Shown piece by piece: positions 4,411-55,992 of a stretch of DNA of 62,583 nt. The stretch spans positions 236,829-299,411 of the forward strand of contig NZ_GG700642.1 in the NCBI RefSeq assembly GCF_000159995.1, written 5' to 3'. A program made the position numbers and the translations under genes. Source of the DNA: Alloprevotella tannerae ATCC 51259 (GTDB taxonomy: Bacteria > Bacteroidota > Bacteroidia > Bacteroidales > Bacteroidaceae). The notes under the pieces were generated by a model. That model saw only the letters and a program-made list of their open reading frames with translations, ran no database searches and was not told the origin of the DNA. Position 1 is the first letter of the stretch; each line of letters begins with the position of its first letter.

Positions 4411-4498
4411 TTCCCACCTATGGGGAGTAAATTTCCCACTTAAGGGAATTAAAATTTCCACCTATGGGAATTTATTTTCCCACGTAGGGAAATTTTTG
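4411..4498. repeat. 22-bp-period dyad array 1 (4 units)
   Basis: Four units start at 4411, 4433, 4455 and 4477, an exact 22-bp step. Each unit is a dyad of type TTCCC-N6-GGGAA: TTCCCACCTATGGGGA, TTCCCACTTAAGGGAA, TTTCCACCTATGGGAA and TTCCCACGTAGGGAAA. AT-rich linkers of about 6 bp separate the dyads. It lies between the promoter side of the beta-helix genes and an IS3 remnant. The architecture matches seven other arrays in this window although the core sequence differs. Confidence 0.9.
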
Positions 4499-4513
4499 AG
4501 GTCATAATGCGTC

Positions 4514-4639
4514 TGTAATGTCCTAGAATTAGTTGACAACTTTGGTTCTTAATTTAATTCTTCTTTGACAAGTTTATTTGCTAAGTTCAAATACGCTTGT
4601 CGTAGTCTTTTCTTAACTACATAGTTAGTTGACAGTTGT
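4514..4639. repeat. Direct repeat, left copy, flanking the IS3 remnant
   Basis: About 126 bp here recur in the same orientation at 4999-5124 (offset 485 bp), roughly 90% identical by eye. Both copies begin TGTAATGTCCTAGAATTAGT and end with TTAGTTGACAGTTGT. A short third piece beginning TGTCCTCGAAT lies at 5130. The 5' part looks like an IS end, but the orientation is direct, so simple terminal inverted repeats do not explain it. Confidence 0.75.
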
Positions 4640-4732
4640 CTTCTAATTGCAAAATTACTCTTTTATTTTCTTGTTGCGGTTGTTTCTGCCTCCTTCTTTT
4701 ATTGTTGGACTTAATAATGTGTGCCGAGGAAG

Positions 4733-5056
4733 TTATGCCGTCAACCTTCCGACTTCTTCCATTGGCGTTCTCATCTGCAGACTCTGATGCGGTCTGAACG
4801 TGTTGTACAGGTCGATGGCTTTCTTTGTGAGGCGCCTGACCTGCTGCAGACTTTTGTCTTCTGTACTGAAGAGCCATCCGTTCTTGAGCGTATTGTTCAT
4901 CCTCTCGGCCAGGGCGTTGTGCAATGGGTCTCCGCTTTGCGTCATACTTATTTGTATTCCAAGAGATTTGAGTTTGTCGACGTACTCATTGCAGCAGTTG
5001 TAATGTCCTAGAATTAGTTGACAACTTTGGTTCTTAATTTCATCCTTCTTTGACAA
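4733..5056 (-). pseudogene. IS3-family transposase (OrfB) remnant, C-terminal fragment
   Basis: The translation contains the end of an IS3/IS150-type integrase core (rve): residues reading GDPLHNALAERMNNTLKNGW, then YNTFRPHQSLQMRTPMEEV, which is the usual C-terminal signature of this family. Only about 90 residues of a roughly 280-residue transposase are present, and the first two catalytic Asp are missing. The first about 20 residues of the open frame are encoded by the flanking direct repeat (4999-5124) and are probably not transposase sequence. The element is dead. Confidence 0.8.
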
Positions 5057-5124
5057 GTTTATTTGTTAAATTCAGCTAGGCTTGTCGCAGTCTTTTCTTA
5101 ACTACACAGTTAGTTGACAGTTGT
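4999..5124. repeat. Direct repeat, right copy
   Basis: This is the second copy of the 126-bp repeat at 4514-4639. It is followed at 5127-5160 by a partial third copy of its first 18 or so bases. The repeats bracket the IS3 remnant, suggesting nested insertions or recombination between IS copies. Confidence 0.75.
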
Positions 5125-5235
5125 TGCAATGTCCTCGAATCAGTTGATGTCCTGCGATTGTCATTGAGTAGATAAAGAAGCATAGACTTTGGCCTAAAAG
5201 CCGTGCGACTGACTCGGTGAGTAAAAAGATTTACG

Positions 5236-5243
5236 TAACTTTG
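5236..5243 (+). promoter_or_regulatory. Bacteroidetes -7 box for the PD40 gene
   Basis: TAACTTTG matches the TAnnTTTG -7 consensus of the Bacteroidetes primary sigma factor and lies 28 bp before the ATG at 5272. I see no good -33 box at the usual 19-20 bp spacing. Confidence 0.45.
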
Positions 5244-5271
5244 CTGCTACGTTATTTACGCAGCAATAAAT

Positions 5272-6528
5272 ATGTACGCAAGATATTTAGCATTCTTATT
5301 ACCCTTGCTTATGCTCTCGCAAACTGCAGAAGCGCAACGACGAACAGGGGAAAAGGATCGTCCGGCATCGAAGGTCGCAGAAAAAAACGTAGATGCGGAA
5401 ACGCTCATTCGCACTTACCGCTTTGATGAGGCTATTAGCAGTTTGCAGCATCAAATAGCAACGGCTAAACGTCAGAAAAAAACTACTATACAGTTGGAGC
5501 AGGCGCTAAGTCGTGCCCGTTTAGGCGCTATAATGCTGTCGGCTACGGAGAAAGTTCGGATTATTGACAGTTTGGTCGTTGATCGCGGTAGCATTCCTAT
5601 TCCACAATTACGAAAAGGTTTGGGAAAACTACAAGCGGCGCAGACCTTGGCTGTTGCGCTTGGACTGACGGCTAAGCGTGTCGGCGAAGCTGCTTATATT
5701 AACGACTGGGGCGACAGGGCTTATTTCGCCATGGCCGATACGACGGAAAACCTGCGCTTATATGTGGCCAATCGTTTTGGACAGAAATGGGGAGAACCAT
5801 CACTTTTGCCGGGTTTTGCGCTGCAGGAGCGGAACGAAGATTTCCCTTTTATGGATCCAGATGGCGTGACCCTCTACTTCGCAGCAGATGGCGCAGAGAG
5901 TTTGGGCGGCTATGACCTCTTCCAAACACGCTATGATGCAGATGCCAAAGCCTTTTTGAAGCCCCAGAATCTGGGTATGCCTTTTAATTCGCCGGCCAAC
6001 GATTTCTTGATGGTCATTGATCGGGCGAATAATATGGGTTGGTTTGTCTCCGATCGTTATCAGCCGGTTGATAAGTTGTGTATTTACTCTTTTATTCCGA
6101 ATGATAATCGCGAAGTTTACGATGCCTCGACCCCTAAAAATACTTTGCGCCAATTGGCTATGCTGATGCCGCTGGAGCTTTCGCAGATTTCGCCGGAAGA
6201 ACGCCGCCAATTGGCCGCTGATTATGCGAAAAACAAGCAGGAAAGTAAGCGTGAGGATAAGAGCAACGTGTTTATTATCAATGATAACACGGTCTACCAC
6301 TCGCTGGATGAGTTTCGCCATACTGAAGCTCGCAAGGCAGCAAAAGAATGGTGGGATGCATCGCAGCGCTTACAAGCTGTCGGCGAACAACTTGACGAAC
6401 TTCGGCGCGTTTATGCAAAGCAAAAAACGGGCGGCGAGGAGATTCTCCGCTTAGAGCAAGAGCAGGCTGCACTGCAAGCAAAGGCTTCGGCCGCTGCGGT
6501 GCGTATGCGAGCATTGGAATTAAAATAA
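5272..6528 (+). CDS. Exported PD40 beta-propeller-repeat protein
   Basis: This 418-residue protein has signal peptide MYARYLAFLLPLLMLSQTAEAQ. Residues of about 45-120 look helical (TPR-like). Residues of about 140-275 carry WD40-like PD40 motifs (FPFMDPDGVTLYFAADG, GGYDLFQTRYD, DFLMVIDRANNMGWFVSDR). The C-terminal 80 residues are a charged coiled coil. PD40 proteins of this type in Bacteroidetes often have a C-terminal OmpA domain and act in the envelope or type IX secretion; this one has no OmpA domain, so I do not equate it with PorE. The next gene follows after 22 bp and may share its transcript. Confidence 0.7.
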   Translation: MYARYLAFLLPLLMLSQTAEAQRRTGEKDRPASKVAEKNVDAETLIRTYRFDEAISSLQHQIATAKRQKKTTIQLEQALSRARLGAIMLSATEKVRIIDSLVVDRGSIPIPQLRKGLGKLQAAQTLAVALGLTAKRVGEAAYINDWGDRAYFAMADTTENLRLYVANRFGQKWGEPSLLPGFALQERNEDFPFMDPDGVTLYFAADGAESLGGYDLFQTRYDADAKAFLKPQNLGMPFNSPANDFLMVIDRANNMGWFVSDRYQPVDKLCIYSFIPNDNREVYDASTPKNTLRQLAMLMPLELSQISPEERRQLAADYAKNKQESKREDKSNVFIINDNTVYHSLDEFRHTEARKAAKEWWDASQRLQAVGEQLDELRRVYAKQKTGGEEILRLEQEQAALQAKASAAAVRMRALELK

Positions 6529-6550
6529 TCTTGTTTGGAAAGAAAAAGAT

Positions 6551-7429
6551 ATGAAAAGTTATTTTGAACCTTCAGAATTGATTATCAATAGTGATGGCAG
6601 CGTATTCCACTTACATCTGAAGCCGGAGCAGTTGGCTGATAAAGTGATCTTAGTAGGCGACCCCGGCCGCGTGCCAATGGTGGCGAGCTTCTTTGATGAA
6701 AAGGAGTGTGATGTGCAAAGCCGAGAATTCAGAACCATTACAGGGCGCTTTCAAAACAAGCGAATAACGGTTGTCTCTACGGGCATTGGATGTGATAATA
6801 TAGATATTGTATTAAACGAACTGGACGCGCTGGCTAATATTGACTTTGAAACGCGCACGGTGAAACCGCAATTGCGTCAATTGGAGCTTGTGCGGATTGG
6901 GACGTGCGGCGGCTTGCAACCGAATACGCCTGAGGGCACTTTTGTCGCAAGCGTGAAGAGTATAGGTTTTGATGGCCTGCTCAACTTCTATGCCGGACGC
7001 GACGAGGCTTGCGACTTGGCGATGGAGAAAGCCTTCGTGCAGCATATGGGTTGGAAAGGAGCGCAGTGTATCGCTCACCCATATATCATCGATGCTGATA
7101 AGGAACTGATCGAGCGTGTTGCGTCAGAAGATATGGTGCGCGGCGTGACGATTGCTTGCGGCGGTTTCTTCGGTCCGCAAGGGCGCGAGTTGCGCATTCC
7201 GCTTGCCGACAGCAATCAGAATGAGAAGATTATGCATTTTGAATATGACGGCTTGCGCATTACAAACTTTGAAATGGAGAGCAGTGCCTTAGCCGGTCTC
7301 GCACGCTTAATGGGCCATAAGGCAATGACCTGCTGTATGGTGATTGCAAACCGCTTGGCCGGACGGGCGAATCCGAACTATAAAAACAGTATTGAGCTAT
7401 TGATCGAACGCGTATTGGAGCGTATCTGA
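6551..7429 (+). CDS. Nucleoside phosphorylase (uridine phosphorylase-like)
   Basis: This 292-residue enzyme belongs to the PNP/UDP phosphorylase (NP-I) family and cleaves nucleosides with phosphate to base plus pentose 1-phosphate in the cytoplasm. The phosphate-binding GDPGRV motif is near residue 37, STGIGCDN near residue 75, RIGTCGGLQ near residue 117, and the ribose/base-binding NFEMESSALAGLA near residue 240. The ExES-type motif and length fit uridine phosphorylase-like members, but the base specificity cannot be fixed by reading. It lies 22 bp after the PD40 gene and is convergent with feoAB. Confidence 0.85.
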   Translation: MKSYFEPSELIINSDGSVFHLHLKPEQLADKVILVGDPGRVPMVASFFDEKECDVQSREFRTITGRFQNKRITVVSTGIGCDNIDIVLNELDALANIDFETRTVKPQLRQLELVRIGTCGGLQPNTPEGTFVASVKSIGFDGLLNFYAGRDEACDLAMEKAFVQHMGWKGAQCIAHPYIIDADKELIERVASEDMVRGVTIACGGFFGPQGRELRIPLADSNQNEKIMHFEYDGLRITNFEMESSALAGLARLMGHKAMTCCMVIANRLAGRANPNYKNSIELLIERVLERI

Positions 7430-7609
7430 TTTCTAATTTATTTTGATTAAAAAAGTTCGATCATTATTTGGCAATATAAAGGGAAGATTGTATTTTTACC
7501 ACGTGACCTGATGCAATCTTTTTACCTTAATTGCTAATCAACTAATGAGAGCGAAAGGGCAGCTGAGTAAGAAGTGCTTGGTTGCCTTTCTTTTATGCTT
7601 TCTGCAAGA

Positions 7610-7651
7610 AAGCGGCGCACGCAATCGTGATGATGCGTGCGTCGCTTCTTT
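7610..7651. terminator. Bidirectional hairpin terminator between the phosphorylase gene and feoAB
   Basis: A strong stem pairs AAGCGGCGCACGCA with TGCGTGCGTCGCTT around a short loop. It is followed by a T-rich stretch in the plus direction and lies between two convergent genes. Confidence 0.75.
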
Positions 7652-7670
7652 ATAAAATGTGGCTACTGGT

Positions 7671-10145
7671 TTATAAGAAAAGCAAAGCCAAGCGATAGAC
7701 GATAAATGAAACGGCATAGGCGAGGCCGGTTGTGTAACAAACAGTAAATATTGCCCACTTCCAATGCCCGGTTTCGTTTTTGATAGCAGTCACTGTTGCA
7801 ATGCAGGGGAAATAAAGCAGGATAAATACTAAATAAGAGAGCGCTGAGGCCGGCGAAAGTGAGCGCGCGATGGCGCTTTGTAAGTGTGTGTCGTGACCGG
7901 CAGCGTCTGCGTCGTCGATTTTCTCGCCGGCGTACATTACGCCCATCGTAGAGACGACGAGTTCTTTTGCACTAACGCCGGACAAGATGCCGACATTCAT
8001 TCTCCAATCGAAGCCTAAGGGGGACATAATCGGACCGATGAGGCGTCCCGCCTGCTCTAAGTAAGACATTTGCGGTGCTGCGACCTCAGCAGAAGGCTGT
8101 GCCGTTTGCTGAGTGCTTGCTGTCGGTTGCGGAGATTGCGTCGGCGTTTCAGCAGGGCGGGGGAAATAACCTAAAAACCAGATAATAATGGAAGCCACTA
8201 AGATGATATGCCCCATTTTTCGCAAATATTGGCGGCCTTTTTCCCACGTATGGCGGCCGATGCTCTTAGCGGCAGGGAGGCGATAAGGCGGAAGTTCCAT
8301 CACAAAAGGCAAATCCACGCCTTTCAGCAAAACTTTGCTGAACAACTTCGCCATTACAACCGCCATGAATATGCCTAAAGCGTACAAGCCTAAGAGAACG
8401 AAAGCCGCATGATGTGGGAAAAACGTACCAATGAGCAGAATATAAATCGGAATACGCGCCGAGCAGGACATCATAGGAATAACCAGCATCGTAATGAGCC
8501 GGCTTTTAGGATTTTCAATCGTGCGTGTGGCGATGACGGCAGGCACATTGCAGCCAAAGCCCATAATCATCGGAATGAAACTCTTGCCGTGCAGTCCCAT
8601 ATGGTGCATTAGTCGATCCATAATAAAGGCCGCACGCGCCATATAGCCTGAATCTTCGAGCAGCGAAATAAAAGTATAGAGAATAAGAATGTTGGGTAAG
8701 AAGACGATCACAGCTCCCACACCGCCAATGATACCATCGACGAGCAAGTCGCGCAAAGTGCCGGGCGCCATGTTTCCTGACACAAACTCGCCGATACGAT
8801 CTACGAGCCACTGCAACCAGTCCATCGGGTACTGGCCTAAAGTAAACGTTGCCTCAAACATTAAAAAGAGCAGGGCAAAGAAGATGGGGAAGCCCCAAAT
8901 GCGGTGGGTCACGATACGATCGATGCGATCCGTGAGCGTGGGCTCTTCGCTGCGTTTTGCCGGGTGAAACGTTTCGCGCAGTGCGCCTTGAATAAAACCA
9001 TATTTGGCGTCAATCAGTGCCGACTCGGCCGATTCTCCCAATTCTTTTTGCAAGCGTTGTTGCTCGGCATAGCGTATGGAGATAATTTCGTCGTGGTTGG
9101 GTAGCTTGTCAATCAAGCTATCGACCTCCTTATCTCCCTCTAAGCATTTAATAGCTAAGTAACGCGTAGAATATTTGTAGCGTATCCGGTCATTGCGTTG
9201 AAAAGCTGCTTTTATTTTGTCAATGCTACTCTCCAGTTCTGGTCCATGATTGATATGAATGTGTCGAGATATTTTCGGATTATTACCATCATAGACAGCG
9301 ATAACTTTCTCAAACAATTCTTCTATCCCTCTTCCCGTGCGGCATACCGTGGGAATCATTGGCGTACCCAGCAATATGCCCAGCGTATGATGGTCCAATT
9401 GATCGCCGCGTGCCTCTAATTCGTCATACATATTCAGTGCGCAGACGAGCGGAAGGTTCATATCAATCAGTTGGGTCGTCAGGTAGAGATTTCGCTCCAG
9501 GTTCGATGCATCTATGACGTTAACAATCACGTCCGGCGTCTCTTCTATCAGCTGTTTGCGCACGTATAGTTCCTCCGGACTATAAGTTGATAGCGAGTAA
9601 GTGCCGGGCAGGTCGACTATTCTGAAATGATACGTGTTGCCGTTCTTCGCCGTGAAGTCGAAGAAGCCGTCTTTTGCTCCGACCGTCACGCCACTGTAGT
9701 TGCCAACGTGCTCGTGCGCTCCGCTGGCAATGTTAAACAGCGAAGTCTTGCCGCAATTCGGATTGCCAAGCAAGGCAACGTAGATCGTGCGTCGTTTCTC
9801 GTCGGCCATTTTCTCCATCTTGTGTAAGAGGCGCTGCTGCAACTCGGCTTCTTCTTCAGCCGTAGGGTGGAGCGGCATTCTGTTTTCTGGCGCCTCCTGC
9901 TGTGCTTTGGCTAAGGCTTCCTCCTCGCCGATAACCTCGATCAGGGCTGCCTCGCTGCGGCGCAAGGAAATCTTGTAGTCCATCACCTCATATTCGATAG
10001 GATCACGGAGTGGAGCGTTGAGAATGACGCGCACAGTTTTGCCTTTGATAAATCCCATCTCTACAATGCGCTTACGGAAACCGCCGTGGCCAAACACTTT
10101 GACAATGACGCCGCGCTCACCGGTATGTAGTTCGCTTAATCTCAT
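7671..10145 (-). CDS. feoB: Ferrous iron transporter, FeoA-FeoB fusion
   Basis: This 824-residue inner-membrane Fe(II) transporter carries its FeoA partner at the N-terminus. Residues 1-72 are the SH3-like FeoA domain (LHTGERGVIVKV, KRIVEMGFIKG). A linker of about 50 residues follows, then the G domain with GNPNCGKTSLFN at 127-138, DLPGTYSLS and NMYD. The membrane part has GFGCNVPAVIATRTIE and two homologous gate regions. A Gln/Thr/Pro-rich insert (about 680-710) lies in a loop before the last helices. FeoA-FeoB fusions are standard in Bacteroidales. Iron regulation is likely, but I could not find a convincing Fur box. Confidence 0.93.
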   Translation of the reverse strand: MRLSELHTGERGVIVKVFGHGGFRKRIVEMGFIKGKTVRVILNAPLRDPIEYEVMDYKISLRRSEAALIEVIGEEEALAKAQQEAPENRMPLHPTAEEEAELQQRLLHKMEKMADEKRRTIYVALLGNPNCGKTSLFNIASGAHEHVGNYSGVTVGAKDGFFDFTAKNGNTYHFRIVDLPGTYSLSTYSPEELYVRKQLIEETPDVIVNVIDASNLERNLYLTTQLIDMNLPLVCALNMYDELEARGDQLDHHTLGILLGTPMIPTVCRTGRGIEELFEKVIAVYDGNNPKISRHIHINHGPELESSIDKIKAAFQRNDRIRYKYSTRYLAIKCLEGDKEVDSLIDKLPNHDEIISIRYAEQQRLQKELGESAESALIDAKYGFIQGALRETFHPAKRSEEPTLTDRIDRIVTHRIWGFPIFFALLFLMFEATFTLGQYPMDWLQWLVDRIGEFVSGNMAPGTLRDLLVDGIIGGVGAVIVFLPNILILYTFISLLEDSGYMARAAFIMDRLMHHMGLHGKSFIPMIMGFGCNVPAVIATRTIENPKSRLITMLVIPMMSCSARIPIYILLIGTFFPHHAAFVLLGLYALGIFMAVVMAKLFSKVLLKGVDLPFVMELPPYRLPAAKSIGRHTWEKGRQYLRKMGHIILVASIIIWFLGYFPRPAETPTQSPQPTASTQQTAQPSAEVAAPQMSYLEQAGRLIGPIMSPLGFDWRMNVGILSGVSAKELVVSTMGVMYAGEKIDDADAAGHDTHLQSAIARSLSPASALSYLVFILLYFPCIATVTAIKNETGHWKWAIFTVCYTTGLAYAVSFIVYRLALLFL

Positions 10146-10548
10146 GGTTTATTCGCTTTTTTTGCCTATAAACTGTTGATAATTCCAGTCAGAAGCTATG
10201 CAAAGTTGCATAAAAAACTCTGTATAAAGATGGCTGTAGGCTGATTTTATTTGCGAAAAAACGCTTGCAGGCCAATATTTTTTTCGATGGAGGCCGGTGC
10301 CTTCTTTTCGAGGTCCTCGTAGGTGTGGTTGGGAGTAGTGCCGGGCAGTTTGATTGAAAGAAAAGTGTCTGCCTTTAGCACCTTTGACCGCCTTTGCTTT
10401 TGCTGATCGTTGAGAAAGAAGCGAGGTTGTTGTGTACGAACAAAACCATCTCAAACCGACAGAAAATGTGGCCCTGTTTTGATGAGATAAGAGCAAGGAA
10501 AACAATCGCTTAAGTCGTAATCTGCTGCGTCAATGATCCGATTGGGAG

Positions 10549-10636
10549 TTTTTGTCTCGTGAGGTGAAGCAGTTTTTATCACGAGCGCAGACTCTTTTCA
10601 TCACGATGGTACATATTTTTCGTCACGATGAAAAAG
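10549..10636. repeat. 22-bp-period dyad array 2 (4 units)
   Basis: The core hexamers TCGTGA, TCACGA, TCACGA and TCACGA start at 10557, 10579, 10601 and 10623, an exact 22-bp step. Left arms are T-rich (TTTTTGTC, TTTTTATC, CTTTTCATC, TTTTTCGTC) and right arms are GGTGAAG, GCGCAGA, TGGTACA and TGAAAAA. It shares core and arm words with the arrays at 25412, 35218, 42307 and 53119. Confidence 0.9.
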
Positions 10637-10878
10637 TGAGAATATGCAGCCTTTGGCGTGAAAAATCAAAAGGTGATTTTGTGAAAATGAGAGATGAGGC
10701 CGTATTTTTTAGTTATTGTTAGTCGGAAACAAAAGTCTCTTGCGCGGCTTGGTGAGAGAATGTTTGCCGTTCAAGTCTTGCGGGTGAAAATGCTTATATG
10801 CGTGGGGTGAAAACGAAGAGGATTGGATTTTTCATCCGGCAATAGATGAGCCGATTAAGCGTAAAGCTGCTATAATAA

Positions 10879-10915
10879 AACTCCGGCCGACAGTTTGTTT
10901 GCTGCCGGTCGGAGT
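10879..10915. terminator. Hairpin terminator downstream of the M13 peptidase gene
   Basis: ACTCCGGCCGACAG pairs with CTGCCGGTCGGAGT around an 8-base loop, with one mismatch. In minus-strand reading it is followed by TTTTATTATAG, as expected for the 3' end of the peptidase transcript. Confidence 0.75.
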
Positions 10916-10968
10916 AGGTGAAGGGCGAGCGAGAAATAAAGCGCTGCCCGTTGTTTTTTAGTCAGTCG

Positions 10969-12996: not shown

Positions 12997-13016
12997 AGTC
13001 ATATATATATTAAATG

Positions 13017-14951: not shown

Positions 14952-14956
14952 AACGA

Positions 14957-17414: not shown

Positions 17415-17515
17415 GTTCCAAAAAAGTTGTAAGCCTGCAAGCGTTGGCGCGGCCTAAGTCCGCCTTCAACACCATCGCAGTGCGCTCACAAGCGTTCGCT
17501 TTTCGGCTTTTCATC

Positions 17516-17599
17516 GTTTGCTCCCGTCAAACGATGGTTTGCTGTTGCCAAACGAAGGTTTGCTCCCGCCAAACGATGGTTTGCTGCCGGCAAATGAGC
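17516..17599. repeat. 21-bp-period dyad array 3 (4 units)
   Basis: TTTGCT recurs at 17517, 17538, 17559 and 17580, an exact 21-bp step. Each unit is the dyad GTTTG-N7-CAAAC (the last ends CAAAT), with linkers such as GATG and GAAG. A weaker relative of the unit may precede it from about 17495. The architecture is the same as in the other arrays but the core is different and the period one base shorter. Confidence 0.88.
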
Positions 17600-25411: not shown

Positions 25412-25499
25412 GTTTTTTATCACGACAACAAAGGTTTGCGCTCGTGAGCGCAAAGGCTTACGCTCACGATGAAAAAGGTTTCCGCTCACGAGCGCACAC
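25412..25499. repeat. 22-bp-period dyad array 4 (4 units)
   Basis: Cores TCACGA, TCGTGA, TCACGA and TCACGA start at 25420, 25442, 25464 and 25486, an exact 22-bp step. Left arms include TTTGCGC, TTACGC and TTCCGC; right arms include CAACAAA, GCGCAAA, TGAAAAA and GCGCACA. The second unit is a near-perfect palindrome centred on GCTCGTGAGC. Confidence 0.92.
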
Positions 25500-34728: not shown

Positions 34729-35602
34729 ACTTTTCTTGTTTTTTCTGTTTGAGCAGCACTGTTTTTGCACTGCCTGTCGGCTTGCTGTTCGTTCGCCCGT
34801 CTTTTTTTTGAAGTCATGGCGTTGGAACTTAGCAAGCACTCAGGGGCAAAGTTAGCAATAAATCCTATACTTTCAAACAAGAAAGTGCCCACATCGGGTC
34901 GATGCTAACAAGATTTGTGCCTCATCAGGCTTGAGATTAAAAATTGAAAAATACGCTTTTTGCGATCAACTCGCAGCCTTCAGCGGGCTTTTCCGTCGTT
35001 TTTTATGTGAAGCGCTTGTTCTCTTGCGCGGCGCGCGCTGTTTGCAGGGTCGAAGGGGGCATCGCGGCTCGAGCAAATCACTTGCCTACTAAGGCTTCCC
35101 GCTTTTTCGCTTGCGTAGCCTCCGAGCGCGTTTATCGAAAGTTCGACAGCAGCTGACGAAGTCTGATACCACGGGCCCGCCCCCGCATCATCGAAGGCTA
35201 AAGGATGCTGGTGCGGAGTTTGCGCTCACGATGAAAAAGTCTTCCGCTCACGATCGTAAAGGTTTACGCTCACGATGAAAAAGGTTTGTGCTCACGATGA
35301 AAAACCTGCGCGGTAGGATTATGTTGTTCTAAAAGTTTGGTTTTTAGATTGTTGTTCCTTTGTTCTCGCCGTGCAGGTTAAGTCCCTCATGAGCTGTGTC
35401 GAGACGCAAACGGCCGGTCGCGCATCGCTGCCGTTATGGCATTGGTCGGTAGCCGTCCTTTACGGAAGTGGCGTAAGGTGCATTTACAACAACCGATACT
35501 GTTTCCACGACTAAAAAAATGAGCGATGAACATTTTTTCGCTGCTCCTTGCGTGTTCGCAATGCGCAAAAGCGTTATCTTCGCTTCGTAAATAGTCGAAA
35601 GT
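34729..35602. other. Gene-free divergent region of about 870 bp
   Basis: No gene is supportable between moxR (leftwards) and the membrane protein gene (rightwards). Small frames such as 34944-35156 have no features. It contains the moxR promoter side, repeat array 5 at 35218-35305 and a possible -7 box (TATCTTCG, 35575-35582) for the rightward gene. I see no tRNA or known RNA fold, but an unannotated small RNA cannot be excluded. Confidence 0.6.
35218..35305. repeat. 22-bp-period dyad array 5 (4 units), the most regular copy
   Basis: TCACGA starts at 35226, 35248, 35270 and 35292, an exact 22-bp step. Units 1, 3 and 4 are nearly identical, of the form GTTTnCGCTCACGATGAAAA. Unit 2 differs in both arms (CTTCCGC left, TCGTAAA right). 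It lies in the largest divergent intergenic region of the window. Confidence 0.95.
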
Positions 35603-36714: not shown

Positions 36715-39267
36715 ATGATAGATCAAGACAGAATCATTAAAGTCGATATCGAAAAGGAGATGAAAACCTCCTATATCGACTATTCAATGTCCGTTATAGT
36801 ATCTCGTGCCTTGCCGGATGTGCGCGACGGCTTCAAACCCGTACAGCGACGCATCTTATATGCAATGATGAATATCGGAAATACGCACGACAAAGCTTAT
36901 ATGAAGTCGGCCCGCACCGTGGGTGAAGTGCTCGGTAAATATCACCCGCACGGTGATAGCTCAATCTATGGCGCGTTGACGCGTATGGCGCAGGATTGGA
37001 ACTTGCGCTACCCCTTAGTGGACGGACAAGGAAACTTTGGTTCGATCGACGGCGACTCGCCGGCTGCTATGCGTTATACGGAATCGCGCATGAGCCTTAT
37101 GGGCGAAACCATGATGCTCGATCTGGATAAGGAAACGGTAGATATGCAAAACAACTTCGACGATAAGTTGAAGGAACCTACCGTTTTGCCGACGCGCATC
37201 CCTAACTTCTTGGTCAATGGTGCGACGGGTATCGCCGTGGGTATGGCCACGAATGTGCCGACCCATAACTTGAGCGAGGTAATCGACGGTTGCGTGGCTT
37301 ATATTGATAATCCGGAGATCGATGTCGAAGGCTTGATGGAGCATATCAAGGCGCCGGACTTCCCGACGGGAGCTTTCATTATGGGGCTGCAAGGCGTAAG
37401 AAGCGCTTACGAAACCGGACATGGGCGCATTATCTTACGTGCTAAGACGGAAATAGAAAACGGGCCGCAACATGATACGATTGTCGTAAACGAAATCCCT
37501 TACGGCGTAAACAAAGCTGAGTTGATCAAGGACATTGCTCGCTTGGTGAACGAAAAACGCATAGAGGGCATCAGCGACGTAAACGATGAAAGCGACCGCG
37601 AAGGAATGCGCATCGTCATAGAGGTGAAGCGCGATGCGAACGCTAACGTGCTGTTGAACAAACTTTTCAAGATGACTGCGCTGCAAAGCAGTTTCGCGGT
37701 CAACTGTGTGGGCTTGGTGCACGGCCGCCCCAAAGTGCTTTCGCTGAAGGATTGTATTCGTACGTTTGTAGACCATCGTCACGAGGTGGTAATCCGTCGT
37801 ACGAAGTATGATTTGCGTAAGGCGCAAGAGCGTGCTCATATCTTGGAGGGCTTAATCATAGCCAGCGATAATATAGATGAGGTCGTGCGACTCATTCGCG
37901 CCAGCAAGACGCCCGCAGAAGCCATCGAAGCACTTAAAAAGCGCTTTGAACTGGACGATATTCAAGCTAAAGCGATTGTCGACATGCGTCTGGCGCAGCT
38001 GACAAACATACAGCAGGATAAGCTACATCAAGAGTATGAGGAGCTGGAACGCAAGATAGATTACTACAACCGCATTCTTACCGATGACGAACTTTGTCGT
38101 CAGGTGATGAAAGATGAGTTGAACGAAGTCAAAGAAAAGTATGGCGACGTGCGTCGTACGGAGATTAAGCTTTCTGCTGAAGAGTTTAATCCTGAAGACT
38201 TTTACGCCGACGACGAGGTTATTATTACCATCAGCCATTTGGGCTACATTAAGCGCACACCATTGGCCGAATTTCGCGCACAAGGCCGCGGCGGCGTAGG
38301 AAGTCGCGGCGGAACGACACGCGATGCAGACTTCATCGAATACATTTACCCGGCTACGATGCACAATACGATGCTTTTCTTCACCGCAAAAGGCCGCTGT
38401 TATTGGCTAAAGGTGTATGAGTTGCCGGAAGGTGCGAAGAACGCGAAAGGACGTGCGATTCAAAATATGCTAAACATAGAGGCGGACGACTCAGTCAACG
38501 CTTTCCTCTACATAAAGAAGCTCAATGATCCCGAGTTTAACAAGTCTCATTACGTTGTGTTCTGTACTGCGGAGGGCATCATCAAGAAAACTTGCCTCGA
38601 AGAGTACTCTCGGCCGCGCACAAACGGCGTTAAGGCGATCACGATTCGAGAAGAAGATCGCGTAGTCAGCGTTGTGCTCACCAATGGCCAAGACGAGCTG
38701 GTCATAGCTAACCGCAACGGCCGCGCAATTCGCTTTAATGAAGACGCCGTGCGCACTATGGGGCGCGTTTCTACAGGTGTACGCGGCATTCGTCTTGATG
38801 AAGACGGCGAGGATCAAGCTGTCGGAATGGTATGTATAAACGATCCCGAAAAGGAAACCATCATGGTGGTCAGCGATCAAGGTTTCGGAAAGCGTAGCGC
38901 TATCGAAGATTATCGCAAAACCAATCGTGGCGGCAAGGGTGTCAAGACTTTGCAACTCACGGACAAGACCGGAAAAGTCGCAGCCATAAAGAGCGTAACA
39001 GACGACAATGATTTGATGATCATCAATCGCAGCGGCATCACGCTACGTCTGAAAGTTGCCGACGTTCGTGTGATGGGACGCGCTACGCAAGGCGTTAAAC
39101 TCATCAATCTGACAAAGCGCAACGACAGCATAAGCAGTGTTTGCGTCGTAACGACAGAAGATGAGGACGCAGAAGCCCTTGATGCGACAACTGAAGCTGT
39201 AGATGCGCCGATCACGTCCGATGCTCCGGAAACAACAATAGAAACAAGCGAACAAATAGACAATTAA
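36715..39267 (+). CDS. gyrA: DNA gyrase subunit A
   Basis: This 850-residue type IIA topoisomerase subunit breaks and rejoins DNA during supercoiling. The catalytic Tyr is residue 121 ([10 protein letters not shown]). The N-terminal winged helix region includes [21 protein letters not shown] and [21 protein letters not shown]. The C-terminal beta-pinwheel (from about 500) has a GyrA-box-like NRGGKG stretch, supporting GyrA over ParC although the box is shortened. In the quinolone region, Ser82 corresponds to E. coli Ser83 and Gly86 occupies the E. coli Asp87 position. The C-terminus is acidic and disordered (about 40 residues rich in Glu, Asp and Thr). Confidence 0.93.
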
Positions 39268-42306: not shown

Positions 42307-42394
42307 GTTTGCGCTCGTGAGGTGAAACCTTTGTTATCGTGAGGTGAAGCTCTTTTCATCACGAGCGTAAACCTTTGTTATCGTGAGCGCACAC
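42307..42394. repeat. 22-bp-period dyad array 6 (4 units)
   Basis: Cores TCGTGA, TCGTGA, TCACGA and TCGTGA start at 42315, 42337, 42359 and 42381, an exact 22-bp step. It is mostly the reverse-complement register of array 5: left arms are TTTGCGC, CTTTGTTA, CTTTTCA and CTTTGTTA; right arms are GGTGAAA, GGTGAAG, GCGTAAA and GCGCACA. Confidence 0.93.
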
Positions 42395-47434: not shown

Positions 47435-47442
47435 TAGGAGTT

Positions 47443-47952
47443 ATGGTACAGACTTTTCTTTCTCGTTTCGGGTGGTTCATATCCTTACTTCTTTTGCAGG
47501 TGTTGGTGTTTAATCACATTCACATCTTTGGCTTTGCCACCCCAATGCCTTACATTTACTTCTTATTGATCTTGCCCGGAGAGACAGCGCGCTGGCTGTA
47601 CATCGTCTTAGGCTTTGTGATGGGGATGCTTGTCGACCTTTTTGCAACCACGCCCGGCGTTGCAGCGTCCTCAATGGCGGCTATGGGCTTGATTGTTCCG
47701 TTGCTATTGCGACTTTTCGGACCAACGGATCGCGATGAGAACGTGCCGTTTCTTCCGGGTGTAAAAATGATGGAGTGGGGCCCATTCTTGCGTTACGCCT
47801 TTGCGACCTCTTTGCTAAATTGTACGCTTTTCTTCAGCATAGAAGCCTTTAGTTTCTTCAATTGGCAATATCTCTTAATGAGCATAGGCGGAAGCACAAT
47901 CCTCACTCTGCTGATTGTTGCGGCAATGGAGCGTATTAGAAACGAAAAATAA
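47443..47952 (+). CDS. mreD: Rod shape-determining protein MreD
   Basis: This 169-residue protein with about five hydrophobic segments starts 9 bp after mreC. LPGETARWLYIVLGFVMGMLVDLFATTPGVAASSM contains the conserved GxxxDL of MreD. It completes the MreBCD complex. Confidence 0.88.
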   Translation: MVQTFLSRFGWFISLLLLQVLVFNHIHIFGFATPMPYIYFLLILPGETARWLYIVLGFVMGMLVDLFATTPGVAASSMAAMGLIVPLLLRLFGPTDRDENVPFLPGVKMMEWGPFLRYAFATSLLNCTLFFSIEAFSFFNWQYLLMSIGGSTILTLLIVAAMERIRNEK

Positions 47953-47968
47953 AGACTCACCATTTGTT

Positions 47969-51272: not shown

Positions 51273-51292
51273 AAAAATAACCGTATTTAATA

Positions 51293-51760
51293 ATGAGTAA
51301 TTATAACAAGCCGAAGAATAAATATACATTCCTGCTGATCTGTTTCGGATTGCTTTGCATCGGAGCTATCATTTGGCTCAAACTGGTCGGCGATAAGCGC
51401 ACATCTTCCGGCCGCGATATACCCGTAGCGCCGCAAGATTCTTCCAACGCTGTTGTTGTGCCGGATACATCAATCGATGCGGGCACCTTGTCCTCATCGC
51501 CCGATTCTTTCGATGTAGCTCCGCCCGACAGTATTGGAAAAGATCGCCGCCCGCCTTTTGAGGCCGGCGACGAAGACGGCTATTTGGCCGGTATGGACGA
51601 CGGTGCTGCCCATACGCCTCAAGCTTCTTATGATGAATCCAACAGTTTTAAGACGATCGACGAGCGTGCAGCCTACGTGCGCGGTTATCGCGAAGGCTAT
51701 GCCAAAGGTTTTGAAGACGGAAGTAAGGGCCGCCAGTTTAATATCTCTTCTAACAATTGA
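51293..51760 (+). CDS. Small membrane-anchored protein with Gly/Asp repeat tail
   Basis: This 155-residue protein has one N-terminal helix (FLLICFGLLCIGAIIWLKL), a disordered Ser/Asp/Pro-rich stretch, and two C-terminal short motifs of alternating aromatic, Gly and acidic residues (DEDGYLAGMDDG and VRGYREGYAKGFEDGSKG). It follows rodA by 20 bp and probably belongs to the elongation operon. I do not recognise the family. Confidence 0.65.
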   Translation: MSNYNKPKNKYTFLLICFGLLCIGAIIWLKLVGDKRTSSGRDIPVAPQDSSNAVVVPDTSIDAGTLSSSPDSFDVAPPDSIGKDRRPPFEAGDEDGYLAGMDDGAAHTPQASYDESNSFKTIDERAAYVRGYREGYAKGFEDGSKGRQFNISSNN

Positions 51761-51830
51761 CACCGCGCACACCTGCTGTTCGTAGAGTAGCAGTTCTGTG
51801 TGCTAACGTCCTTAAATTCTTTCCGAAAAT

Positions 51831-53060
51831 ATGGAAGATACGAAACACATACAAATAAAAGACTACAACTATACGCTACCTGAAGATCGCATCGCAAAAT
51901 ATCCGGTTGCTCCGCGCGATCATTCCAAACTCTTGCTCTATCGTGACGGCCGGGTAAGTGAGGATTCGTTCTACAATCTGCCCACTTACCTGAAGCCGGG
52001 GGCTTTGATGGTCTTCAATAACACAAAAGTAATCTTTGCGCGCCTTCATTTTCAAAAGGCAACGGGCGCACTCATTGAGATCTTCTGTTTAGAACCGCAT
52101 ACGCCGGCCGATTATCAGCAATCGTTTGCCGCAACGCGCCGCGTCACGTGGACGTGTTTGGTCGGCAATATGAAGAAATGGAAGGAGGGGCGCTTGGAGC
52201 GCACGGTTAAAGTAGGGGATAGGGAACTACTCCTTACGGCAGAGCACAAAGGCCCTGCGGGAACGGGTTTCGAAATAGCCTTCGACTGGGGCGATGATGC
52301 GGTTAGCTTCTCTGAAGTGTTGGATGCCATTGGCGAATTGCCTATTCCGCCATACTTAAATCGCCAAACGGAGCAGAGCGATCTCAACAATTACCAGACG
52401 GTCTATTCGAAAATTGAAGGTTCTGTGGCTGCACCGACGGCCGGACTCCATTTTACCGATGACGTTCTTCGGCGTTTGGATGAGGCCGGTATTGTACGCG
52501 AAGAGATTACATTGCATGTAGGAGCGGGAACTTTCAAACCTGTGAAGAGCGAGGAGATAGAAGGCCACACGATGCACGCAGAATGGATTGCCGTGAGTCG
52601 GCAAAACATTGAGCACCTCTTGGCCCACGACTGCTCGTGCATAGCTGTCGGTACGACCAGTGTGCGCACGCTGGAGAGTCTCTATTATATCGGTGTCTTG
52701 ATTCATCGTAACCCTCACGTAGCGCCCGAAGACTTGCACGTACCGCAATGGTTACCTTACGAATATGAGACATCGACGGAAGAAAAGCTGACCCCGGAGG
52801 CTGCTTTGCGCGAAATCTTGGCTTATTTGGACCGCAATCGTATGAGCGTCTTGCATACTGCCACGCAAATCATCATAGCGCCGGGCTATACGTATAAGAT
52901 CGTGAAGACGATGGTCACAAATTTTCACCAGCCGCAAAGCACGCTTTTGCTGCTGGTTTCAGCTTTTGTCGGCGGCAATTGGCGCACTATTTATGACTAC
53001 GCACTTGCGCACGATTTTCGCTTTTTAAGTTATGGCGATAGTTCGCTACTCAATTATTAA
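51831..53060 (+). CDS. queA: S-adenosylmethionine:tRNA ribosyltransferase-isomerase
   Basis: This 409-residue enzyme transfers the ribosyl moiety of SAM to preQ1-modified tRNA in queuosine synthesis. Family motifs are DYNYTLPEDRIAKYPVAPRDHSKLL near the N-terminus, PGALMVFNNTKVIFARL, EGSVAAPTAGLHFTDDVLRRL, ITLHVGAGTFKPVKSEEIEGHTMHAEW, AVGTTSVRTLESL and VTNFHQPQSTLLLLVSAFVG. The length is slightly above the common about 350, as in other Bacteroidetes. Confidence 0.94.
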   Translation: MEDTKHIQIKDYNYTLPEDRIAKYPVAPRDHSKLLLYRDGRVSEDSFYNLPTYLKPGALMVFNNTKVIFARLHFQKATGALIEIFCLEPHTPADYQQSFAATRRVTWTCLVGNMKKWKEGRLERTVKVGDRELLLTAEHKGPAGTGFEIAFDWGDDAVSFSEVLDAIGELPIPPYLNRQTEQSDLNNYQTVYSKIEGSVAAPTAGLHFTDDVLRRLDEAGIVREEITLHVGAGTFKPVKSEEIEGHTMHAEWIAVSRQNIEHLLAHDCSCIAVGTTSVRTLESLYYIGVLIHRNPHVAPEDLHVPQWLPYEYETSTEEKLTPEAALREILAYLDRNRMSVLHTATQIIIAPGYTYKIVKTMVTNFHQPQSTLLLLVSAFVGGNWRTIYDYALAHDFRFLSYGDSSLLNY

Positions 53061-53118
53061 ACTCGCACTTTCGCAAGGCGTTTAGTTAATGCTACAACTT
53101 GCAGGGCCTGTCCCTGTC

Positions 53119-53206
53119 GTGTACGTTCACGAGCGTACACCTTTGCGCTCGTGATGATAAACGCGTACGCTCGTGAGAAAAAACTCTTCTCCTCACGAGC
53201 GTAAAC
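53119..53206. repeat. 22-bp-period dyad array 7 (4 units)
   Basis: Cores TCACGA, TCGTGA, TCGTGA and TCACGA start at 53127, 53149, 53171 and 53193, an exact 22-bp step. The first unit is a near-perfect palindrome, TGTACGTTCACGAGCGTACA. Right arms are GCGTACA, TGATAAA, GAAAAAA and GCGTAAA. It lies in the 285-bp gap between the convergent queA and small-membrane-protein genes. Confidence 0.93.
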
Positions 53207-53287
53207 GTTTTCAGCGGGTTTTTATCGCCTGTCTGGGCGTAGCAACGCGCTTCAAATGCAAAACTTACTAACATACTTTTCTATACA

Positions 53288-53327
53288 AAGCGGCGCGGAA
53301 GTGAGTTAAAACTCTTCCGCGCCGCTT
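53288..53327. terminator. Strong bidirectional terminator between convergent genes
   Basis: AAGCGGCGCGGAAG pairs perfectly with CTTCCGCGCCGCTT around a short loop, between queA and the 94-residue membrane protein gene. Confidence 0.88.
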
Positions 53328-53345
53328 CGTTATCGTTCCTCTTCG

Positions 53346-53630
53346 CTAAAGGATAAATAGAATATCAAGAAGCGTCAAAATATTACCGCACACGAGTATG
53401 GCAATGCCGCGTTTTTGGTAGCCTCTGCGATAGTCGTTGAGGCCTATAAAAAAGGCTACGATAGGCAAAATCCATAGTAGGTTGACCAAGAGATAGATAA
53501 GAAGTCCAATGAAAGCTCCCCAGCTGCTCGGCGCTTTGAATAGTCCGCCAAAGAGAAAGAATACGCTGAAAAATACCGGAATGGTATTCAGAAAAGCTAA
53601 GGCCAAAAGCCATTTAGGATAATTTTTCAT
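53346..53630 (-). CDS. Small membrane protein, three helices
   Basis: This 94-residue protein has three hydrophobic segments (residues of about 8-30, 38-63 and 72-93) separated by short loops with NDYRRGYQKRG. The initiator is the ATG at 53628-53630. I do not recognise the family. It lies 67 bp downstream of the TPR gene on the same strand. Confidence 0.6.
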   Translation of the reverse strand: MKNYPKWLLALAFLNTIPVFFSVFFLFGGLFKAPSSWGAFIGLLIYLLVNLLWILPIVAFFIGLNDYRRGYQKRGIAILVCGNILTLLDILFIL

Positions 53631-53697
53631 CGGTTCAATGTCTTATATATTGCTGTCGAAATCTGTTCTTCGCATCGCCATTGTAGGGGTTAGACGC

Positions 53698-54603
53698 TTA
53701 TGGCTCATCATGTTCGCCTGCGCGCAAGTCGGCCGCCGTTTTTTCATCTTCCTCGGCAGCTTCCGGAGCGTTGTTTTTGCGGAATAGCACTGCTCGGCGA
53801 TCGTAGAGATTGGGGTTGGCGGGCTGCAAGTCGATGGCGTCGTCGCAATGCGTAATTGCCTTGGCCAAGTCTCCACGCTGTTCGGCCAGTCTACTTAACA
53901 AAGCGTGGGCTTCTACGTTGAACGGATTCAGTTCGCTTACTTTTTGGCACGCAGCTTCAGCTTCAGCGCTTCGTCCTGCCGCCGCAAGTGTCTCGGCTTG
54001 GAGCAGTGCATAATCCTCATGGTCCGGTGCGTCCTTTAATAAGCGCTCTGCATCAGCCAGAGCTTCGTCGTAGCGCGTCAAAGCTGAAAGCACTTGCACA
54101 CGCAGTTGGATGGCTTGTGCATAATCAGCACGCTCGCTGATCGCATCGTCGAGAAAGTTGAGCGCTTCTTCGTGCTTGTCTAATGCGTATGCGGCCTTAG
54201 CCGACAAATAAAGGAGTCGCGGCTCTTTCGCCTCAATGTCCGCGAGCGTGGTGCAGATTTGCTGCATCGACTCGTAGTCTTCCGTCTCTCCATATGTATT
54301 GGCCAGCAATAGACCTATTTCTAAATTGCTGGTTTCTTCAGTGTGAAGTTCTTGCAAGAGGGGCAGCGCAGCGGCATAGTTTTGCTGCATCAACTGCACT
54401 TCAGCCAAAAAGCCTACGACGCGAAGTTCGCGCTTAATTTCCAGCGCCTCCGTGAAGCATTTTTCCGCAAAGTCGACCATCCCCATTTGTTTTGCGCGTA
54501 AACCATCGTCACAAAGAATGTTGAAACGGCGCTCTGCGTCCTTGGCGGCCTTTTCTTCTGTCGGTTCTTCGGACGCGCCGAATAGTTTTTTGAGGAAACT
54601 CAT
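53698..54603 (-). CDS. TPR protein (cytoplasmic)
   Basis: This 301-residue protein has no signal peptide. The N-terminus MSFLKKLFGASEEPTEEKAAKDAERRFN is an amphipathic helix plus acidic linker. About seven TPR-like repeats follow (DDGLRAKQMGMVDFAEKCFTEALEI, YLSAKAAYALDKHEEALNFLDDAI, ARYDEALADAERLLKDAP-type pattern, ALLSRLAEQRGDLAKAITHCDDAI). The C-terminus is acidic. It probably mediates protein contacts; the partner is unknown. It starts 10 bp after the EamA transporter stop. Confidence 0.75.
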   Translation of the reverse strand: MSFLKKLFGASEEPTEEKAAKDAERRFNILCDDGLRAKQMGMVDFAEKCFTEALEIKRELRVVGFLAEVQLMQQNYAAALPLLQELHTEETSNLEIGLLLANTYGETEDYESMQQICTTLADIEAKEPRLLYLSAKAAYALDKHEEALNFLDDAISERADYAQAIQLRVQVLSALTRYDEALADAERLLKDAPDHEDYALLQAETLAAAGRSAEAEAACQKVSELNPFNVEAHALLSRLAEQRGDLAKAITHCDDAIDLQPANPNLYDRRAVLFRKNNAPEAAEEDEKTAADLRAGEHDEP

Positions 54604-54613
54604 AGGTGTAATC

Positions 54614-55579
54614 TTATTTTCGTCCGCGTGTGAAGATGATCATAATCACGGCAGGAATAATTAGTGACAAACCAATAAGGATGCTCGTCGTCAATGGCTC
54701 GTTGAAGAAAATCAACCCTAAGGTAACGGCCGTCAGCGGCTCGAGTGCGCCTAAAACAGACGTCATTGTAGAACCAATATTCTTAACGGCAACAATCAAG
54801 CACAGGTTGGTTACAACTGTACTTACGAGGCCCATAATCGAAAGCGAAACCAGCTGTGTCTGGGTCGTAATCATCTCGAATTTGTTCTCTAAGAGAGCGT
54901 AGCCCATAAAGATCATGGCGCCGAACAGCATAATATAGAATGTCATCTTCAAAGCATCCATATCTCTAACTCGCGAGCGGTTGACGCGAATCAAATAGAG
55001 CGCATAGCAAAGGGCGGAAATCAACTCGATAATTACGCCGCGCCAATCGACGGTTCCGTCTGATTGCCACGAAAGTACGCCGACACCGACGACAGCCAGC
55101 GTCACGGCGATGATGGTCGAGAGTTTGCGCGCCTCGTTGTAAAACATCATCATCAAGATTGTGGTAAAAGCCGGATACATAAAGTGAAGCGTCGTAGCCA
55201 CACCGGTCGACATATACTGATAACCACCAAAGAGGAAGAGTGCAGACCCATCGGAAAGGAACGCAAGGTAGAGTAGCGTAACGAGTTCGCCGCGCGTAAT
55301 GCGAAAACTCTTCCGCTTAATGAGCATAACGAGCCCTATTATGAGGGCCGCACTCATAAATCGATAGAAGAGAATCGAGAGGTTAGGCATGAAATCTTCA
55401 GGCTTTGCTGCTGCATTTGACTCGCTCATCGGTAGAACGAGCGTCGGCAAAAGACCGTAACAAATTGCAGCAATTAAAGCGCAAATTGTACCTTGTAAAG
55501 CCGCGCTTGGTCCGCCGCCTAAAGTTTTGTGCTCATGTCCGGAAATCCGACGAAAGAAGTGGAAAATGGGGTTACTCAT
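54614..55579 (-). CDS. EamA/DMT-family transporter
   Basis: This 321-residue inner-membrane protein has ten helices arranged as two EamA repeats. First half: AICYGLLPTLVLP, FYRFMSAALIIGLVMLIKR, GVATTLHFMYPAFTTILMMMFYNEARKL. Second half: ELISALCYALYLIRVNRSR, MLFGAMIFMGYALL, GSTMTSVLGALEPLTAVTLGLIFFNEPLT. The substrate is unknown. The N-terminal 25 residues (FFRRISGHEHKTLGGGPS) are a cytoplasmic extension. Confidence 0.85.
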   Translation of the reverse strand: MSNPIFHFFRRISGHEHKTLGGGPSAALQGTICALIAAICYGLLPTLVLPMSESNAAAKPEDFMPNLSILFYRFMSAALIIGLVMLIKRKSFRITRGELVTLLYLAFLSDGSALFLFGGYQYMSTGVATTLHFMYPAFTTILMMMFYNEARKLSTIIAVTLAVVGVGVLSWQSDGTVDWRGVIIELISALCYALYLIRVNRSRVRDMDALKMTFYIMLFGAMIFMGYALLENKFEMITTQTQLVSLSIMGLVSTVVTNLCLIVAVKNIGSTMTSVLGALEPLTAVTLGLIFFNEPLTTSILIGLSLIIPAVIMIIFTRGRK

Positions 55580-55882
55580 AAGTTTAACTCTACAAATATT
55601 TGCGCTGCTACCGATGTCATCTCTTGAAAGTACTTAGGCGGCACACAGCACTCAAGTTGTGTTTATTAAAAGCGCCAACGGCTTTCGCCGCCATTGCCGC
55701 TTGATGTGTGTTTCATTCGTCCTCCTGCCGTCATCGGTTGAAGGGACGTGCAAATGTAAGCATTTATTCTTTCTTACCTCTTTTCTAAGCGACAGAAAGC
55801 GGGATAAAATGAGATAGTGCCACAATTATTTACTCTGTCTGAATATCCTTGATCGCGTGAATGACCCACTTAAGGATTAGAA

Positions 55883-55992
55883 CGTTCCTTTTAAGGAAAA
55901 GATCCGCACCTTTTGAGCAAAACGTCCGTACTTTTTACGAAAAAGGAGCGCACCTTTTGCTGAAAAGGTACGCTCCTTTCTTGTGAAGACTG
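55883..55992. repeat. 22-bp-period dyad array 8 (4 units plus a degenerate fifth)
   Basis: The CCTTTT element (CTTTTT in unit 3) recurs at 55887, 55909, 55931, 55953 and, weakly, 55975, an exact 22-bp step. Each unit is a dyad of type CCTTTT-N4-AAAAGG (the best is CCTTTTGCTGAAAAGG), linked by CGCAC, CGTAC or GCGCA-like words. It has the same architecture as the other arrays with a different core. Confidence 0.9.

Follow-up and report, generated by a model that had tools for sequence, protein, structure and literature searches.

Nucleoid proteins of the classical HU family are regarded as nearly sequence-blind, having little sequence preference, and the sequence-specific nucleoid proteins with dispersed chromosomal sites, such as ParB (parS), MatP (matS), Noc and SlmA, use single sites that are not phased tetrads and do not come as many families together. 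Helix-phased tandem sites of about 20-22 bp occur in plasmid iterons and ParR centromere repeats, which occupy one locus per replicon. Here we describe arrays that resemble iterons and ParR repeats in their phased tandem sites of similar step, but that are dispersed over many loci. They were noticed in a stretch of 62,583 bp from Alloprevotella tannerae ATCC 51259 (contig NZ_GG700642.1, our C6:236829-299411; hereafter the window), which contains eight intergenic arrays of about four dyadic units stepping by 21 or 22 bp. Several of the families to which such arrays belong adjoin genes that match HU-HIG (PF18291), a clade of the HU/IHF superfamily, and, judging from sequence, each unit family rather probably serves a single HU-HIG paralog as its binding array, both at its own promoter and chromosome-wide. 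By analogy, their mode of action may then be like that of ParB-parS, MatP-matS, Noc and SlmA.

Among interspersed repeats, repetitive extragenic palindromes (REPs), which are linked to REP-associated tyrosine transposases (RAYTs), and bacterial interspersed mosaic elements (BIMEs) are likewise intergenic, palindromic, high copy and lineage-specific (PMC3733652, PMC2817692), and BIMEs have regularly spaced units, alternating orientation and protein binding sites (PMC3733652). The arrays described here differ by their exact 21-22-bp chain, their usual number of four units and the presence of several families per genome. BrickBuilt, a miniature inverted-repeat transposable element (MITE) found in Porphyromonas gingivalis, likewise consists of tandem direct repeats of 23 nt between the genes of a member of the Bacteroidales, but it is larger and has a leader, a tail and terminal inverted repeats (TIRs) like those of IS5-family ISPg elements (PMC4596501), whereas arrays of our family F1 stop at the end of the fourth unit. 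These F1 arrays are 88-bp blocks (4 x 22) the flanks of which show no likeness by eye (30 loci, in an alignment of F1 arrays), which sets them apart from a MITE. Clustered regularly interspaced short palindromic repeats (CRISPRs) do not fit either, the F1 and F2 units being contiguous at 22 and 21 bp with no spacers. A preliminary description of the window knew of no standard feature class with this architecture and, in the literature searched (mostly without subscription papers), we found no description of the array class or of HU-HIG arrays, whether as private dispersed arrays or as a private phased layout; PMC2267715 contains no Bacteroidetes names.

Array families of constant unit number and period

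The eight arrays of the window, to which no strand is assigned, are as follows.

4407..4491, no strand: F3 array (TTCCC-ACCTAT-GGGAA type), 4 units at 22 bp, with an A-run before and a T-run after
10549..10636, no strand: F1 array (TTT-N4-TC(AC/GT)GA-N4-AAA), 4 units at 22 bp
17514..17598, no strand: F2 array (GTTTG-SYSSSRS-CAAAC), 4 units at 21 bp
25412..25499, no strand: F1 array, 4 units at 22 bp, DNA identical to locus L013
35218..35305, no strand: F1 array, 4 units at 22 bp, in a divergent gap; query of the genome-wide F1 search
42307..42394, no strand: F1 array, 4 units at 22 bp
53119..53206, no strand: F1 array, 4 units at 22 bp
55883..55980, no strand: F8 array (CCTTTT-N4-AAAAGG plus TCCGCA), about 4.2 units at 22 bp

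All eight arrays of the preliminary description are where it placed them, the array at 17516 has the 21-bp period given for it, and the four units claimed for each hold in general, failing for the array at 55883 with its 4.2 units. All eight are indeed intergenic, while elsewhere a few arrays overlap short called open reading frames (ORFs). Period and copy number are conserved with differing unit sequences, as had been claimed, but the units are not the unrelated singletons that were implied, since they form genome-wide families and five of the eight arrays (10549, 25412, 35218, 42307 and 53119) are one TCRYGA family, F1. Beyond F1, F2, F3 and F8, further families in the sampled genome have mostly four units, and some three to six. 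Five of the arrays are period 21-22 rows in Tandem Repeats Finder (4407, 17516, 35217, 42315 and 55887); those at 10549, 25412 and 53119 have no such row and are plain once the sequence is written at 22 bp.

The period stands out in lag scans, which are threshold-based and miss weak arrays. Inside the window, 66-bp windows with at least 36 matches number seven at lag 22 and three at lag 21, and 0-2 at each of the remaining lags from 8 to 59, save for four at lag 44 (twice 22). At the same threshold, the window plus 20 sampled 20-kb stretches (462,583 bp) yields 27 sites at lag 21 and 34 at lag 22, compared with 5-8 at the remaining lags from 10 to 43, except for 22 at lag 42, while lag 44 has 24, each of these counts including five N-masked runs. 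In 402,583 contiguous bases of the genome (2,585,719 bases in six contigs, C5 and C6 among them, with a GC content of 46.7%), the scan listed 43 sites, of which 37, one or two of them without clear dyads, are intergenic sites at lags 21/22 (vs 0 at ten control lags) and six lie inside called ORFs, where inspection by eye suggests three arrays in doubtful ORFs and three coding repeats. The genome-wide enrichment at lags 21/22, the absence of which would in the preliminary description have spoken against an array family, is therefore present.

Unit number is nearly constant. Exactly four chained units were found in 32/33 F1 arrays, the remaining one having five, and, among chains of three or more units, in 40/41 arrays of a wider overlapping TCRYGA set and in 27/28 F2 arrays (GTTTG-N7-CAAAC), the remaining one having six; the F2 unit steps are 21 bp in 86/86 cases. 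Invariant in 133 F1 units are a T five bases before the core, TC, GA and an A after them (the constancy of TC and GA being imposed by the search pattern, which left the centre free), and the four letters between the constant half-site letters are variable. The centre is AC in 63 and GT in 70 of these units, and nothing else (AC or GT in 158/160 in the wider set), in an orientation that is independent of the array (97/202 pairs alike). F1 arrays are mutually only about 68% alike, and unit likeness is 14.7/22 inside one array vs 13.6-15.5 between arrays; when both strands are pooled, there is a modest excess of direct likeness inside arrays (in the majority of unit pairs z is roughly 3 to 7, but -2.4 for F1 units 1 and 4), which accompanies array orientation. 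Common descent of whole F1 arrays leaves a weak position signal at most, reached by 45/500 shuffles. Because half-sites are fixed, other letters vary freely and units differ within an array about as much as between arrays, the behaviour of F1 units fits binding sites rather than slipped repeats.

Ordinary minisatellites generated by local slippage would also be tandem units of one period, and two observations are in keeping with such an origin: the six-unit F2 array and a 23-bp family whose unit number varies between three gene copies. These copies, L314, L315 and L316, are near-identical HU-like genes with arrays of, by eye, about 6, 4-5 and 5 units. It is nevertheless highly improbable that slippage accounts for the arrays, considering the constant number of units in F1 and F2, the modest size of the excess of likeness within arrays and the recurrence of an identical period with unrelated sequences; neither unit counts nor lag scans bear out the slippage that the preliminary description had named as a possible refutation.

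As RNA, the arrays had been pictured as a ladder of small hairpins, a suggestion that we dropped on two grounds. Four unit hairpins are not the predicted fold of any window array: the array at 35218 folds worse than its own shuffles (z +2.1), and the remaining seven, although they outdo their shuffles (z -2.8 to -7.1), achieve this via pairing between units. Besides, several variable dyad partners avoid complementarity, since Watson-Crick pairing is 0.00 observed vs 0.49 expected at the F1 centre, 0.10 vs 0.35 at the F1 junction, 0.17 vs 0.47 at the F2 loop and 0.09 vs 0.28 at the F2 outer positions; F2 positions 9/11 show no avoidance (0.47 vs 0.48). In an Rfam search of the window, tRNA alone reached the gathering score, and the arrays are thus not a known structured RNA.

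HU-HIG genes beside arrays

The A. tannerae genome has 30 matches to PF18291, 24 of them at 50 bits or more. When near-identical copies are collapsed by eye and the F5 group is left out, 6/10 HU-HIG groups have an upstream array no more than 300 bp from the start of the HU domain (at 82-255 bp), vs 12/270 control ORFs of at least 130 aa (Fisher P = 5e-6), the distances being not quite equivalent since they run from the longest ORF start in controls and from the domain start in HU-HIG genes. A seventh group has an F2 array at 435 bp (L292) and an eighth (L291) decayed F1-like units alone, read by eye, while no array was found at L317 and L318, which are weak matches and probably classical HU. 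The arrays upstream of HU-HIG genes are listed below.

L307 (C6:314862): F1 array 82 bp before the HU-HIG gene
L309 (C5:189467): F2 array 92 bp before the HU-HIG gene
L310, L311 and L313: F7 array upstream of the HU-HIG gene
L312: F6 array upstream of the HU-HIG gene
L289: array of the TTTCACCACGGTGA family upstream of the HU-HIG gene
L314-L316: array of the 23-bp TCCTTATAGGA family upstream of the HU-HIG gene

The families that adjoin an HU-HIG gene are F1, F2, F5, F6, F7 and two further ones, F6 and F7 being found by eye, in the sampled stretches, solely at these genes. F5 has 33 places, of which 15 are strong (E 2e-34 or better) and lie each 184-214 bp behind an HU-HIG match; C6:1265821 (118-position span, E 4e-9) is counted among the 18 weaker ones. 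The small HU-HIG gene and its F5 array make up 15 dispersed modules on C5 and C6 (L293-L306 and L308), which are about 87% alike and share flanking sequence, in which no pair of TIR and target-site duplication was recognised by eye. In one of them, L308, there is a long GT dinucleotide run, which lies upstream at about 600 bp from the HU domain.

These modules are an argument for viewing the arrays as REP/BIME-like repeats, selfish or domesticated, that are spread by a transposase, have no dedicated binder and carried the HU genes along, and RAYT-type REP sequence lies, by eye, just upstream of 11/15 of them; high copy, intergenic location, dyads and lineage-specific families point the same way. 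This origin is nonetheless unlikely, because F1 arrays have unrelated flanks and little mutual likeness, because the single Y1 transposase match of the genome (Y1_Tnp) sits among REPs of a different kind, CCAACCCTATGGGGTTG, and because it leaves HU-HIG adjacency unexplained. The array nearest to that REP block is an F5 module; tags such as GTAG were not searched.

Adjacency extends to relatives. In the congeners G007, G008 and G020, 8/12 strong HU-HIG genes (a mix of orthologs and paralogs) have an array at most 300 bp away on either side, vs 59/295 controls taken from G008 and G020 alone, with none for G007 (P = 0.0008). A profile scan of 114 further loci (80 named, 34 from relatives) found a single HU-HIG gene, in the uncultured Bacteroides locus L088, and 80 bp upstream of this gene lies an array of four 22-bp units. 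PF18291 matches of at least 50 bits number 1, 4, 7 and 24 in four array-bearing genomes. G004, a congener with a complete genome, has three matches of 24-35 bits, none stronger, and no dyad array within the 280 kb sampled (with a threshold of 38 matches, lag 22 yields no site and lag 21 a single one, a coding-like repeat). HU-HIG genes and arrays may thus go together, as they do in these five genomes, of which a single one, G004, sampled over those 280 kb, is array-free.

The proteins of L307, L309, L289, L291, L320, L321 and L327 have about 200 residues and can be aligned along their length. All five long HU-HIG proteins scanned have an N-terminal HU-HIG domain, and 4/5 have sub-threshold helix-turn-helix (HTH) or winged-helix matches in their C-terminal part. 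Their best solved relatives are HU and IHF, which are DNA-bending dimers, with a few weak ones such as S25 and DDRGK1, which we take to be winged-helix-like proteins.

Sister species, relatives and chromosomal placement

The sister species G008 and G020, aligned pieces of which are 68-90% identical (mostly 78-87%), have in common a family with three 15-bp units, in which 75/76 steps are 21 bp; the 53 arrays analysed were kept solely if three units chained, while two-unit chains are 8/42 in the pairing set. A comparison of syntenic sites, as the preliminary description had proposed, reveals that most compared sites are shared and that their unit contents are rewritten. After correction by hand (A100251 paired with B93197, A187466 shared, A144917 and A186028 not shared), the matching G020 gap holds a partner for 15/17 G008 chains, which speaks against REP/BIME-like spread, whereas five G020 arrays without any array in the matching G008 gap would agree with it. 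Mean base agreement is 42.3/57 between orthologous and 40.0 between non-orthologous arrays (P = 0.018, 16 pairs, one of them offset by one base). One orthologous pair is identical across the array, save for the inverted five-base core of the middle unit, and another has paired changes in units 1 and 3. Shared gaps, nearly unlinked contents and the core inversion therefore suggest that many sites persist while their units are flipped and exchanged. In the orthologous HU-HIG genes L320 (G008) and L321 (G020), the distance from the array start to the ATG is 168 bp each time, and agreement is 51/60 before the array, 66/88 in it, 72/80 after it and 329 in the first 369 bases of the gene, the differences being mostly in unit cores (TTAGGG-like in G008, TGCGCA-like in G020).

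In the same family, units 1 and 3 are complementary at 11.0/15 positions vs 10.2 between arrays (sd 0.29), with compensatory variants, and the arrays end in AAAAT (39/53) and ATTTT (36/53). Together with the clean inversion of a middle core and the better-than-shuffled folding of 7/8 window arrays, these properties would suit hairpin or cruciform elements that act as DNA or RNA structure, by buffering supercoils, by ending transcripts or by being prone to template switching. Such elements are an improbable explanation in view of the dyad partners that avoid complementarity in F1 and F2, the poor folding of the array at 35218, and gap types and stop distances that do not favour transcript ends.

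Placement is close to background. Window gap types (ORFs of at least 80 aa) are five tandem, two convergent and one divergent, and 38 A. tannerae arrays in gaps are 27 tandem, 6 divergent and 5 convergent, vs 25.0, 8.2 and 4.9 expected. Stops less than 60 bp from an array are 0/37 in A. tannerae vs a background of 11.8%, and about background in G008 (3/10) and G020 (5/20); starts less than 60 bp away are 1/39 in A. tannerae and 5/14 in G020, the latter vs a background of 21%. Given this placement, terminators and ordinary gene promoters were dropped, the intrinsic terminator failing on the 0/37 stops even though F3 and the G008/G020 family have A-run/T-run ends. Arrays near HU-HIG starts, with a TAnnTTTG box within 260 bp in 7/11 inspected, could also be operators of ordinary local transcription factors, with one regulon per family and HU-HIG genes as one regulated class, but this is decidedly improbable given that the dispersed A. 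tannerae arrays are enriched neither in divergent gaps nor near starts.

Arrays are regularly spaced along the chromosome in G020 (P = 0.0045, coefficient of variation, CV, 0.53), while no such regularity is seen in G008 (P = 0.79) or in the whole A. tannerae genome (CV 1.09, P = 0.91), in which regularity appears (P = 0.0002) solely after the post hoc omission of two array-free stretches. These two differ, as one has two integrases and a DndB match and the other has core genes. The former, L255-L257 (C6 about 354-400 kb), is of low GC (40.2%), its two integrases are tyrosine integrases, and it is probably in part an island. A fifth of the genome, C5:0-498 kb, has no F1, one F5 and eight F2 places among the candidates scored, which were 40 of about 90 for F1 and for F2 and 40 of 41 for F5.

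The array families are lineage-specific, and other Bacteroidales own different versions. When one F1 and one F2 array were used as queries against 60 relatives (36 congeneric), nothing matched at E 1e-6, and yet 20-kb samples of the congeners G005, G007, G008 and G020 contain arrays. For the 850-aa protein at 36715-39267 of the window, the closest named relatives come from Prevotellaceae and Alloprevotella MAGs, with 79-82% identity. In 80 named Bacteroidales loci (1.45 Mb) there are 30 lag-22 sites with at least 40 matches, some of them coding or non-dyad, compared with 0-6 at other lags that are not multiples of three (lag 44, with 16, excepted), and unit sequences differ from locus to locus. 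A conserved array upstream of lon was discarded, relatives having scattered hits at most (lag 22 in 8/75 loci), and so was a plasmid or phage origin, since one F1 array searched against plasmids and one F2 array against phages gave no match at E 0.01.

Arrays as candidate addresses of HU-HIG proteins

Because arrays of the same kind adjoin HU-type genes, the arrays are probably landing strips for HU-type proteins. The oligomerising protein on one DNA face that was envisaged in the preliminary description survives as an idea and now has a candidate family, HU-HIG, found beside arrays, although we infer rather than observe its binding. One HU-HIG dimer would sit on each dyad, and the 21-23 bp step, which is two helical turns, would let about four dimers stack cooperatively on one DNA face and bend or wrap the array into one nucleoprotein unit. 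Each family would be assigned to a single HU-HIG paralog or, where near-identical copies exist, to one set of them: F1 to the gene at C6:314862, F2 to that at C5:189467, F5 to the 15-copy small HU-HIG gene, and F6 and F7 to others. The gene-adjacent array would mediate autoregulation of the HU-HIG gene, while dozens of dispersed copies would bring that protein to intergenic DNA along the chromosome, where it would serve nucleoid architecture or insulation.

More speculatively, each Bacteroidales cell may contain several parallel private nucleoid networks, made of rapidly diversifying HU paralogs each with its own address code of about four dyads at a two-turn phasing, the codes being rewritten by core inversion and exchange while many of the sites are old, so that each lineage would come to have codes of its own. 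It is equally tentative that such codes would be found at the paralog's own promoter and at dozens to hundreds of intergenic sites, in an architecture that is unchanged between lineages.

Several observations weigh against assigning the arrays to HU-HIG proteins: (i) any PF18291 match is more than 1 kb away from 18/33 F5 places, (ii) F1 and F2 arrays mostly lie far from HU-HIG genes, which is expected of dispersed sites and is not explained by adjacency, (iii) no HU-HIG partner was found in the A. tannerae genome for F3, F4, F8 and F9, (iv) no HU-HIG gene is clearly private to the commonest G008/G020 family, which has one at a distance of 412 bp in G020 and, in both species, a weak and probably classical HU match at about 245 bp, (v) no array was seen at the strong HU-HIG genes L319, L331 and L334, one of which is at a contig end, (vi) in G008, the cores of the L320 array differ from those of a second array with the same arms, which argues against strict co-evolution, (vii) the L307 protein, the partner proposed for F1, had no HTH match in the domain scan and (viii) single adjacencies may be due to chance because there are 37 arrays in 139 gaps of at least 110 bp.

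Were the assignment to HU-HIG proteins correct, many sequence-addressed HU-type networks would exist side by side in Bacteroidales, with arrays marking the location of each protein, and a class of intergenic DNA that is abundant in oral and gut bacteria, and for which we found no name, would be explained. It would also offer a system for studying changes of a DNA-binding code over many sites, and would open the HU-HIG clade to direct tests of function.

The sole Y1 (IS200-like) transposase match of the genome, L161:9857-10330 (C6:839856-840329), is inside a REP-type hairpin block, CCAACCCTATGGGGTTG, at a locus with the following features.

L161:2319-2424 and L161:9446-11978: REP-type hairpins

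At the same locus, an ORF with a thiol-activated-cytolysin Pfam match (L161:2783-3895) lies amid repeated paralogous DNA.

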